From the NCBI GenBank assembly GCA_947475995.1, contig CANJNI010000009.1, positions 1-64,000 of the forward strand: a stretch of DNA of 64,000 nt. The letters are read 5' to 3'. Below are positions 6,218 to 54,268 of this stretch, one piece after another. The notes below the pieces were generated by a model. The model was not told the origin of the DNA. It was given only the letters and a program-made list of their open reading frames with translations, and did not search any database. The first letter of the stretch is position 1. The number at the start of each line of letters is the position of its first letter. The position numbers and the translations under genes are program-made. Source of the stretch: Beijerinckiaceae bacterium (GTDB lineage Bacteria > Pseudomonadota > Alphaproteobacteria > Rhizobiales > Beijerinckiaceae).

Positions 6218-6231
6218 TTGATCGGCGTCAA
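6218..6231 (-). promoter_or_regulatory. FixK/FNR box in front of hemN
   Basis: The 14-mer TTGATCGGCGTCAA has the FixK/FNR half-sites TTGAT and GTCAA separated by four bases. It lies between the amidase stop and hemN, with its centre about 41 bases upstream of the A of the ATG at 6184. FixK/FNR control of hemN is well established in Bradyrhizobium, Rhodobacter and enteric bacteria. Use of this copy is inferred. Confidence 0.8.
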
Positions 6232-10795: not shown

Positions 10796-10809
10796 TTGAT
10801 CCGGATCAA
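10796..10809. promoter_or_regulatory. Perfect FNR/FixK palindrome between ligAB and the lactonase gene
   Basis: TTGATCCGGATCAA is an exact inverted repeat and an exact match to the TTGAT-N4-ATCAA consensus of FNR/FixK/Anr proteins. It lies in the 127-base region between divergent genes. A class II promoter from this box would start transcription near 10844 toward the lactonase (14 bases before its ATG) or near 10761 toward ligA (31 bases before its ATG). Direction and activation versus repression cannot be told from sequence. Confidence 0.75.
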
Positions 10810-52148: not shown

Positions 52149-52268
52149 GCCCCCTGATAACACGGGGCCGCGCCGAAATTAAACGCCGCTGCTTCACCGG
52201 AGCCGCATCCGGTTGCAAAGTCGCCTGCGGCGTGATCGAACAGACGCTCCGTGGCGGCGGAGAGGTCA

Positions 52269-52418
52269 TTGCCAAGTCTTTTTCGATTCCTTCTTGTTGT
52301 CGGGGTCCTGGCCGGTCTCGTCTGGGGCGGCATGTTCGCGCTCGTGACATTTGTCGAGCCGACGCCGCGCGAGATGACCCAGACCATTCCGGCCCAAAAG
52401 CTGAACCAGAACCGCTGA
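52269..52418 (+). CDS. Conserved 49-residue membrane protein directly upstream of xerD
   Basis: This short gene starts with TTG after GGAGAGG (about 4 bases) and its stop is immediately followed by the xerD ATG. The product is one membrane helix (LPSLFRFLLVVGVLAGLVWG) followed by a conserved-looking tail, FVEPTPREMTQTIPAQKLN. A similar small protein with the phrase FVEPTPREMT sits at this place in many Rhizobiales, often labelled histidine kinase by mistake. It is likely an inner-membrane protein with the tail in the periplasm. Function unknown. It is divergent from aroKB. Confidence 0.8.
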   Translation: MPSLFRFLLVVGVLAGLVWGGMFALVTFVEPTPREMTQTIPAQKLNQNR

Positions 52419-53369
52419 ATGGCCCGCGTCGCGCAGGGCACGGGCCGCCTGATCGAGGATTTCCTCGACATGATGGCTGCCGAGCGGGGAGCGGCGAAAA
52501 ACACGCTCGACGCCTACCGTCGCGACCTGTCTGATTATGCGGAATTTCTCGCCGGGCAGGGCGCCCAAGCCGCAGGTGCCGATACTGCGACCGTTCAGGC
52601 TTTCCTGATCGACCTGCAGGGCAGGGGAATCGCGGCCTCCTCGGCGGCCCGGAAACTCTCCAGCGTCCGCCAGTTCCACAAGTTTCTGCTGGCCGACGGC
52701 CTCGCTGCCCGCGACCCGACGGACGTGATCGAAGGGCCCCGGAAGGGACGTTCCCTGCCCAAGGTTCTCGGCGTCGAGGAGGTCGACCGGCTGCTGTCGG
52801 TCGCCCAGGAGGGGATTGGGGACGTCACGCGCCCCTATCCCGAGCGACTGCGCGCTGCCCGGACCTTTTGCCTCCTGGAGGTGCTTTACGCGACCGGCCT
52901 GCGCGTCTCCGAGCTCGTCAGCCTGCCCCTGTCGGCGGCCCGCACCGGCGATCCGCTCCTGATGATTCGCGGCAAGGGCGGTCGCGAACGGCTGACGCCC
53001 CTGTCGGAACCGGCCCGCCGCGCCATGCGGGCCTACCGGGACCTGCTGGAAGAACGCCACCCGGATCTGGCGGCAGGCCCCTGGCTCTTCCCCGCCGATA
53101 GTGAGAGCGGCCATCTGACCCGTCAGGCCTTCGCGCGCGACCTGAAACTCGTCGCCGCAATGGCGGGCATTTCGTCGCAGCGCATCAGTCCGCATGTGCT
53201 GCGTCACGCCTTCGCGAGCCATCTGCTGCAAAACGGCGCGGATCTGCGCGTCGTGCAGGAATTGCTGGGCCACGCGGATATTTCGACCACGCAGATCTAT
53301 ACGCACGTTCTCGACGAGCGCCTGAAAAACATGGTGCGCGATCTGCACCCGCTGGGCGACAAGGACTAA
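52419..53369 (+). CDS. xerD: Tyrosine recombinase XerD
   Basis: This 316-residue recombinase has an N-terminal core-binding domain (about residues 10-95) and a catalytic domain with the full active site: Arg162 in [13 protein letters not shown], Lys186 in [13 protein letters not shown], His259 and Arg262 in [14 protein letters not shown], His285 in [13 protein letters not shown], and the nucleophile Tyr294. With XerC it resolves chromosome dimers at dif near the terminus, under FtsK control. It has no phage-type neighbours and follows the small membrane-protein gene without a gap, so it is the housekeeping XerD rather than an integrase. Confidence 0.92.
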
Positions 53370-53404: not shown

Positions 53405-53418
53405 TTGATTTACGTCAA
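53405..53418 (+). promoter_or_regulatory. FixK/FNR box ahead of a 32-residue membrane protein
   Basis: TTGATTTACGTCAA carries the half-sites TTGAT and GTCAA with a 4-base gap, a full FixK/FNR match. It lies 36 bases after xerD and about 60 bases before the ATG of the small gene at 53479. A class II start from it would be near 53453. Confidence 0.78.
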
Positions 53419-53478
53419 TGAACGCAGCCCTTCCTGGTTGTTCCCTTGCTGCATTAAGTTTTGCAAACGGGGGACGCT

Positions 53479-53577
53479 ATGGGACCGATCGAAACGCTTT
53501 TGATGATGACTGCGATTGCGGCATTCGCCATCTTCGCCGCGACTGTCGTCTATGTGGATCGCAAGACGAACGCCTGA
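53479..53577 (+). CDS. 32-residue single-helix membrane protein under a FixK/FNR box
   Basis: This tiny gene has an excellent ribosome site (GGGGGAC, about 4 bases before the ATG) and encodes a protein with one membrane helix (LLMMTAIAAFAIFAATVVYV, about residues 7-26) and a short basic tail ending DRKTNA. Size and topology recall small subunits or assembly aids of cytochrome oxidases, such as CydX or CcoQ/CcoS-like peptides, but no sequence match is claimed. The FixK/FNR box upstream suggests expression under low oxygen. No oxidase genes are nearby. The reading frame is too short for routine gene calling and was found by reading the DNA. Confidence 0.65.
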   Translation: MGPIETLLMMTAIAAFAIFAATVVYVDRKTNA

Positions 53578-53614: not shown

Positions 53615-53649
53615 TTCATTTCAGGCCTGTTCGGCAGGCCTGAAATGAA
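53615..53649. other. Perfect 15-bp palindrome covering the end of the methyltransferase gene
   Basis: TTCATTTCAGGCCTG and CAGGCCTGAAATGAA are exact inverted repeats around TTCGG. On the minus strand the element contains the stop codon of the methyltransferase gene. No U-tract follows, so it may be a 3' stabilising hairpin or mark the convergent end of the small membrane-protein transcript. Confidence 0.7.
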
Positions 53650-54268
53650 AAACGCCTGCAGTGCGTTGCGCAGAGGCGCTGTCGCCGACATCGTGGACGG
53701 CGTAACGCGCGATTTCGCATAATCCCTCTGTCGGAAGATAGGCGCGTCCGATATCTCCGACTAAAACGGCCGCCCCCCGCGCCGCGCAGGCGCGCAGGAA
53801 TGGCAGCGACGACGTCGCGACAGCCGCATCGTAAAAGACATCGCCCGCCAGCACGAGATCGACGCTCCTGAATGCCGGATCGTCCGGATCGCTGCTTGTG
53901 GCGATCGACACGTCATTGAGCTGCGCATTCAGCCGGGCCGCCGCCAACGCAATCTCTTCAATATCGTAACAAATTACCATGCGCGCGCCGTGACGTCTTG
54001 CGGCGATGCCCGCCAGCCCGCATCCGCAGCCGAAATCAAGGACGCTTTTCCCGGCGACCAGCAAGGGATTGCCGGCGAGGTACTCGATCAAGGCAGCGCC
54101 GCCTGGCCACAGATGGGCCCAGTAGGGCGGCGCATCCGAGCCCGTGAGTTCCGCAAGACGCGCAAGGCCGCTGCCGGGCTGCGCGGCGTAATACCTCAGG
54201 GCCTCGTCCTGCGCGGCGGACGCAAGTCGGAAATGCGCGCTGAAATAGGCTTCAATCCCGTCTTTCAT
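53621..54268 (-). CDS. Class I methyltransferase resembling ETF-beta lysine methyltransferase (Nnmt1-like)
   Basis: This 215-residue protein has the layout of METTL20/EtfB-KMT and similar protein lysine methyltransferases: PPYWAHLWPGGAALIEYLAG before the SAM motif, SVLDFGCGCGLAGIAARRHG, the acidic CYDIEEIALAAA, and the post-motif VLAGDVFYDAAVA. In alphaproteobacteria such enzymes methylate the beta subunit of electron-transfer flavoprotein. The substrate here is inferred only from pattern. It is transcribed toward the small membrane-protein gene and away from pal. Confidence 0.8.
   Translation of the reverse strand: MKDGIEAYFSAHFRLASAAQDEALRYYAAQPGSGLARLAELTGSDAPPYWAHLWPGGAALIEYLAGNPLLVAGKSVLDFGCGCGLAGIAARRHGARMVICYDIEEIALAAARLNAQLNDVSIATSSDPDDPAFRSVDLVLAGDVFYDAAVATSSLPFLRACAARGAAVLVGDIGRAYLPTEGLCEIARYAVHDVGDSASAQRTAGVFHFRPAEQA

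Follow-up and report, generated by a model that had tools for sequence, protein, structure and literature searches.

How a gene for a membrane protein of only 32 residues comes to stand behind a site for an FNR-type regulator, with no oxidase beside it, and what such a protein might do, are the questions raised by one locus in the 64,000-nucleotide stretch of a Beijerinckiaceae genome that we analyzed (contig CANJNI010000009.1; hereafter, the window). The initial annotation described a 32-residue frame at 53479 with a ribosome site, behind a box at 53405-53418, and all of these can be read in the sequence. The features of the locus are as follows.

53405..53418, plus strand: FNR/FixK-type box TTGATTTACGTCAA, with one mismatch to TTGATNNNNATCAA; the box is kept in the family.
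53441..53446, plus strand: predicted -10 hexamer TTCCCT, placed from 87 box-aligned family promoters; weak in the window copy.
53453, plus strand: predicted transcription start, by arithmetic from the family promoter alignment, with the box centre at -41.5.
53469..53474, plus strand: ribosome-binding site GGGGGA, read directly; the family has a purine-rich block at the same place.
53479..53577, plus strand: gene for a 32-aa single-helix membrane protein, recognised by its frame, its homologues, its protein-like evolution and a predicted helix over residues 3-31.
53615..53649, no strand assigned: perfect 15-bp inverted repeat between the small gene and a convergent methyltransferase-like gene; may mark where the transcript ends.

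The frame extends from the ATG at 53479 to the TGA at 53577 and translates into MGPIETLLMMTAIAAFAIFAATVVYVDRKTNA (32 aa); the start codon lies 60 nt from the end of the box and 4 nt from GGGGGA. The earlier description of the box as full, or textbook, was slightly too strong in view of the one mismatch to TTGATNNNNATCAA, though the box itself stands and the G found at that position occurs in 24% of 87 family boxes. The small gene is flanked by a XerD-type tyrosine recombinase gene (52419-53369) and by the convergent methyltransferase-like gene (53621-54268), and the wider surroundings are housekeeping genes (aroKB, pal, ybgF and ftsH). No oxidase or cyd gene was seen adjoining the window copy, which bears out the earlier remark that no oxidase is nearby; the genome does have a cbb3 oxidase elsewhere (FixO at G000:C13:7261). 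There is one copy of the small gene in its own genome, and a search for plasmid copies gave no match. Between aroKB and xerD, at 52251-52418, a further frame of 55 aa has a single hydrophobic stretch and may likewise encode a small membrane protein.

We calculated pN/pS over codons 2-25 from 24 close pairs of family members, 15 of which are independent. The ratio in the proposed frame was 0.29 for the 24 pairs and 0.30 for the 15 independent pairs, whereas the other two frames gave values of 1.5-1.9, and the changes in all pairs were distributed over the three codon positions as 103/68/237. Selecting the pairs by protein identity biases pN downward, but the third-position excess is large all the same. 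Over the whole length, pN/pS was 0.47, partly because the tails of unequal proteins are compared. By these patterns of substitution, the frame is one that evolves as a protein. The alternative would be that the frame is untranslated and that the box drives a small RNA or is a chance site; in that case, a short RNA would be expected, with a possible end at the 53615-53649 hairpin, which has a terminator-like score on the minus strand only. However, the codon-wise conservation is found in the proposed frame only, the region of the ribosome-binding site and the helix are conserved, and a search of Rfam gave no match at the locus. This explanation is scarcely credible.

AlphaFold2 predicts that the window protein forms one helix over residues 3-31 (mean pLDDT 95.5, pTM 0.53). 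Family members range from 29 to 67 aa in length, and the 70 found by protein similarity (see below) have a mean of 0.04 basic (K+R) and 1.0 acidic residues at positions 2-8 and of 2.9 basic residues after residue 24. These results confirm the earlier reading of one membrane helix with a short basic tail, to which an acidic N-terminal end can be added. Given this charge distribution and the positive-inside rule, an N-out, C-in topology is predicted.

To what extent do the box and the frame occur together in relatives? We searched for the protein without using the box, with single sequences in 51 genus and 199 family genomes and with profiles in 51 genus, 247 order and 290 class genomes. Matches at E <=1e-4 were found in 29 of the 51 genus genomes (30 matches in all). 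An FNR-type box with at most two mismatches lies upstream of 30/30 genus, 26/29 order-level and 24/29 class-level loci found by protein similarity. These counts keep as misses L067, L074 and L084 in the order and L168, L172, L178, L189 and L190 in the class; L084 and L190 are likely chance matches, and L067, L168, L172, L178 and L189 look like true members without a recognisable box. Left out as not belonging to the family were L017, L018, L020, L024-L027 (frames of at least 262 aa) and L056. Among the 70 distinct members found by similarity, 65 carry a box with at most two mismatches and five have no recognisable box, compared with 1/70 in an equal-sized interval further upstream, and in 62 of the 65 the box starts 64-88 nt before the start codon. 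When all 92 distinct members are considered, the best box has zero, one or two mismatches in 43, 34 and 10 members, respectively (87/92, compared with 1/91 in the control interval). Of the 92, 22 came solely from a pattern requiring the box together with E5, F16, F19 and A20, and are biased accordingly; we therefore recounted the box and the conservation on the 70 similarity-found members, and the result stands.

We also scanned the DNA of genome_contigs (84,980 species) with a pattern consisting of the box, 45-75 nt, ATG, E5, F16, F19 and A20. The scan returned 60 stretches, 48 of which are family members by their frame; the 12 dropped as not belonging to the family include six that represent one Paenibacillus locus. 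Alphaproteobacterial names are attached to 44 of the 48 members, and the other four are named only ‘Proteobacteria bacterium’. The named carriers include Beijerinckiaceae, Hyphomicrobium, Methyloceanibacter, Caulobacter, Reyranellaceae and Inquilinus, and further Ferrovibrio, Telmatospirillum, Tagaea, Aquibaculum and Enhydrobacter. As far as the record names tell, the variant caught by the box-plus-frame pattern was found only in Alphaproteobacteria. In these comparisons, the box and the frame are one conserved unit. Their joint conservation in relatives, and the fact that no known family fits, support the initial proposal that the frame encodes a small, so far undescribed membrane protein belonging to the low-oxygen regulon.

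Some members differ from the window copy in number, form or setting. Genome G021 has two family copies (L004 and L019), each with a box. In Hyphomicrobium and related organisms (L112, L115, L118, L142 and L148), the helix is followed by SWK or SWG in a longer tail; at L112, L118 and L142, the small gene follows a gene that is LysR-like by eye. In the genomes of two box-less members, L168 (G553) and L172 (G521), FixO and a strong CydA match were likewise not found, as if the box and the oxidases had gone together.

Next, we consider the promoter. When the 87 family promoters are aligned on the box, they show the extended motif TTGATCTRGATCAAKGC and a -10 element 37-42 nt from the box start, with A at the second base (box position 38) in 57% and T at the sixth base (box position 42) in 67%. 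The position of this element predicts a transcription start at box position 49, and hence a box centre at -41.5, which is the class II position of FNR promoters. At the family level, these promoters can therefore be read as class II FNR/FixK promoters, having both the -41.5 spacing and the -10 element. The window hexamer TTCCCT keeps the family T and is without the A, a poor match, and a plain sigma-70 promoter scan at the window copy found nothing.

Could the box be a chance occurrence, and is there a regulon to which it can belong? Sites with at most two mismatches to TTGATNNNNATCAA show no excess in the window (17 found vs 14.6 expected). Those with zero or one mismatch are only three in number (6218, 10796 and 53405), so that, by our own arithmetic, a particular 100-bp interval would contain one with a chance of about 0.5%. 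In the whole genome, the pattern TTGAYNNNNRTCAA has 23 sites, compared with four for the reversed control pattern. We examined 15 of these sites; several lie inside genes, and the examined boxes include sites at ccoN (COX1 family), near the start of hemN (identified by TIGR00538, over its cut-off) and before a gene for an FNR-type regulator. This regulator gene (G000:C13), with its own box upstream, encodes cNMP-binding and Crp helix-turn-helix domains and a cysteine cluster near the N-terminus, and the best model for its product is FnrL, at 173 bits, under that model's cut-off of 300. Given the boxes at ccoN, at hemN and at the regulator gene, there is an FNR-type regulon in this genome, and the box at 53405-53418 can be part of it.

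The two other near-perfect sites in the window have settings of their own. The FNR-type box at 6218-6231, TTGATCGGCGTCAA, lies near the start of a minus-strand hemN. The site at 10796-10809 is a perfect palindrome, TTGATCCGGATCAA, between minus-strand ring-opening dioxygenase genes (an aromatic ring-opening dioxygenase of the LigB family, 288 aa, and an adjoining 114-aa frame) and a plus-strand gene that is amidohydrolase-like by eye. A low-oxygen box before an oxygen-consuming dioxygenase would be odd. A homologue of the 288-aa LigB-family protein is encoded convergently to the small gene at loci L116 and L130.

We propose that the box and the frame together form a self-contained unit of one gene within the low-oxygen (FNR/FnrN/FixK) regulon. 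As oxygen falls, an FNR-type regulator would bind the box at -41.5 and recruit RNA polymerase, and a short transcript would be made and give the 32-residue protein. From the box, the family promoters and the regulon of this genome, we regard this regulatory half of the account as highly probable. The protein would then insert into the membrane as one helix, with its acidic N-terminus outside and its basic C-terminus in the cytoplasm.

The pattern of conservation gives some indication of what the helix may do. Among the 70 similarity-found members, F19 is present in 69, F16 in 62, L9 in 53, E5 in 52 and A20 in 43, with Y or F at position 8 in 57 and L or V at position 23 in 65. The periodicity of conservation has its maximum at 102 degrees per residue (permutation p=0.018 for the 70 members and 0.027 for all 92), which places the conserved residues on one helix face, although this signal is modest and the register was set by the match to our own consensus, a possible bias. 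We suggest that the conserved face (E5, Y8, L9, V12, F16, F19, A20 and L23) would dock on a larger membrane protein, and that the docked helix would stabilise or tune this partner for low-oxygen work. Docking via the conserved face is moderately supported by these alignments; a conserved face could also mean self-association.

If there is a partner, its identity might be reflected in the gene neighbourhood. The small gene immediately follows xerD in the window, L002, L006 and L007, and in L120 one gene separates it from xerD. The earlier expectation that the place downstream of xerD would be conserved therefore holds for these four genus members and L120, but other contexts are found elsewhere. 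No recurring neighbour or partner was found in the 48 box-selected loci and 60 larger regions (<=20 kb). Genes of the cco or FNR type are present in 6/60 neighbourhoods (L207, L217, L218, L236, L246 and L252) and in 0/40 control regions (Fisher p=0.08, two-sided), which is at most a mild tendency. In Caulobacter (L128 and L132), the small gene has ompW and CydC/CydD-like genes as neighbours, and in L132 cydA follows at a greater distance. Matches of CydC/CydD in tblastn at 28-37% identity (L216, L217, L218, L221 and L223, and the controls L298 and L305) were taken as generic ABC transporters and rejected.

In two Bradyrhizobium-like genomes (L217 and L218), a CRP-family gene and an FNR-type gene flank the small gene, which also has a small cytochrome c gene beside it; the FNR-type neighbour resembles fixK1. 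This context bears on the possibility that the protein is a signalling peptide, whose helix, induced by low oxygen, would exert feedback on a membrane sensor kinase, a protease or a regulator pathway. Such a peptide would be MgrB-like. A single helix with one conserved face would fit such a role, and FNR-type genes also lie near L246 and L252. In Caulobacter, FixT is described as a feedback inhibitor of the Fix system in the accessible text of one report (PMC3751524). The order of the cyclase and CRP/FNR regulator genes at L217 and L218 fits that of blr6059 and bll6060 in a table for B. diazoefficiens in the accessible part of another report (PMC6515984). However, no sensor kinase recurs among the neighbour clusters, and we consider a signalling role distinctly unlikely.

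We also analyzed the co-occurrence of the gene with the two high-affinity oxidases. Within the genus, FixO is present in 22/29 genomes with the gene and in 17/22 without it (p=1), and CydA in 8/29 and 9/22, respectively (p=0.38). There is no CydA match in the window's genome or in 21 of the 29 carriers. In one genus genome with the gene (G002; 99% complete, 9 contigs), CydA has two matches and FixO none.

In the class sample, the search gave 40 matches, of which we discarded G606, G673, G701 and G744 as chance or doubtful and kept 36, including seven without a sequence-level reading. FixO is found in 27/36 genomes with the gene and in 112/254 others (Fisher p=0.0006), a comparison in which absences of the gene are unreliable because at most 25 candidates were scored per genome. 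A strong CydA match is found in 17/36 and 114/254 genomes, respectively (p=0.86). Partial matches to PF01654 (E of 1e-14 or weaker), nine in number, are over the family cut-off but were counted as not CydA; five of them are among the 36 carriers (G502, G553, G593, G655 and G703), and with partial matches included the numbers become 22/36 and 118/254 (p=0.11). Neither FixO nor a strong CydA match was found in five class carriers (G490, G521, G553, G613 and G691), or in four if partial PF01654 matches count. Among these, G613 is a single contig, rated 100% complete, which has the gene with a perfect box and no FixO or CydA match. Genes can be missing from draft assemblies, which makes any single oxidase absence weak evidence; G002 and G613 are the strongest cases.

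The association with FixO in the class is real evidence that the protein could be an accessory subunit of the cbb3 cytochrome oxidase, CcoM- or CcoQ-like and encoded away from the cco operon. The shared regulon, the presence of cbb3 in the window's genome and the cco genes in three neighbourhoods (L207, L246 and L252) point in the same direction. However, the association may reflect genome size, lineage or lifestyle, and it is not seen in the genus, where seven of the 29 carriers, G002 among them, have no FixO match; the same is true of nine of the 36 class carriers, including the one-contig G613. In addition, the FixQ model matches only 1/71 members of the family alignment, at E 0.16. We therefore treat a cbb3 subunit as an unlikely explanation, but one that carries appreciable weight.

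A subunit of the bd oxidase, like CydX or CydH/YnhF, would match in size and in the low-oxygen link of CydH, and the Caulobacter contexts described above would suit it. This idea does not agree with the missing CydA matches in the window's genome and in most genus carriers or with the lack of a class association, and neither profile nor protein matched anything in a PDB set that holds CydH and CydX. If the absences are real, an obligate bd-subunit role is already refuted, and the bd reading in general is very improbable. Since carriers exist in which FixO, CydA or both were not found, the small protein would not be an obligate subunit of either oxidase, and the oxidase-subunit role at which the initial annotation hinted is not established.

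Genomes with the gene and without FixO and a strong CydA match introduce another possibility, namely a stress peptide whose target is the membrane as such. The precedent is YohP (27 aa), for which, according to the accessible portion of one report, such action lowers membrane fluidity and membrane potential (PMC12719787). In G613, another perfect box lies before a gene named by eye as Hsp20-like, which keeps this explanation alive. A gene in the same genome had been taken by eye for a universal stress protein, but has no match in Pfam and was set aside. The class-wide aromatic face and E5, on the other hand, argue for a specific partner, and action on the membrane itself seems quite improbable.

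We therefore return to a low-oxygen helix that docks on a membrane partner. The partner would most likely be respiratory or other energy-conserving membrane machinery, and not exclusively the cbb3 or the bd oxidase. With no tie to either high-affinity oxidase, it is the regulation that points to a respiratory partner, and since the nature of the partner is read from the regulon, we give the account as a whole, with a probably respiratory partner, no better than an even chance. A more specific form of the proposal, which we put forward tentatively and with somewhat more doubt than belief, is that a one-gene unit, consisting of a class II FNR promoter and a single docking helix, roams the class and encodes no subunit of either known high-affinity oxidase; its product would bind and retune a membrane complex that is kept at all oxygen levels, such as the aa3/bo3 oxidase, bc1 or another energy-coupling complex. 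If this is true, then low oxygen is answered by reshaping existing complexes, besides making new oxidases. FNR/FixK regulons are well studied in alphaproteobacteria, and a frame of about 30 residues is easily missed by annotation; the conservation described here suggests an undescribed part of alphaproteobacterial low-oxygen adaptation. The conserved gene and promoter in Caulobacter, Hyphomicrobium, Inquilinus and others offer several cultured groups in which the partner and the role can be sought.

Finally, we compared the protein with known families and named systems. The window protein has no match in Pfam and only a sub-cut-off match in NCBIfam (E 0.39), and in the 71-member alignment no Pfam or NCBIfam family is common to more than four members. 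Against the PDB, the family profile found one unrelated chain (E 0.66) and the single sequence none, whereas the E. coli CydH and CydX sequences, used as controls, found 6rko_H and 6rko_X, so that both chains are in the set. Small membrane proteins of the low-oxygen oxidase, CcoQ/FixQ (PF05545) and CcoS/FixS (PF03597), are encoded in cco operons; the small gene differs in lying outside a cco operon, in the single weak FixQ match mentioned above and in that FixS is not among the best 25 of 28 Pfam families for the 71 members. CydX (PF08173; 37 aa) consists of one helix and resembles our protein as a small single helix, but its family is likewise not among the best 25 of 28, the genome has no CydA match and no cyd gene stands beside the window copy. 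CcoM also has one helix.

The accessible part of the open-licence literature yielded no description of the small protein. In the accessible part of a study based on orthologous gene sets of 87 genomes, a table of the core FNR/FixK/DNR regulon contains cbb3 genes, coproporphyrinogen oxidase, OmpW, Usp, others and four unnamed hypothetical proteins, and nothing in it is recognisable as the small protein (PMC2908626). Comparisons with three described proteins draw on the accessible parts of the respective reports. YohP of E. coli is a tiny membrane protein made under stress (PMC12719787), and the likeness is by description only. CcoM, a cbb3 subunit of Pseudomonas stutzeri with 36 aa and a low-oxygen role (PMC10433244), is similar in size and in the low-oxygen link; it differs in that the profile found no PDB match (the CcoM chain is unconfirmed in the set) and in that our gene is present where FixO was not found. 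CydH/CydY (YnhF), a subunit of the E. coli bd-I oxidase, is made at low oxygen from a gene away from the oxidase operon (PMC6853902). With 29 aa, it would share with our protein the single helix, the length of about 30 aa, the low-oxygen link and a gene apart from the oxidase operon, but it is set apart by the PDB and CydA results given above. A single-helix protein of low oxygen is thus a known kind, but, as far as our analysis shows, the family itself is new, and so are its self-contained promoter unit and its independence of both high-affinity oxidases. By membership, the small protein would be none of CydH, CcoM, CcoQ/CcoS and CydX, and by analogy it appears to be a protein like CydH/YnhF.
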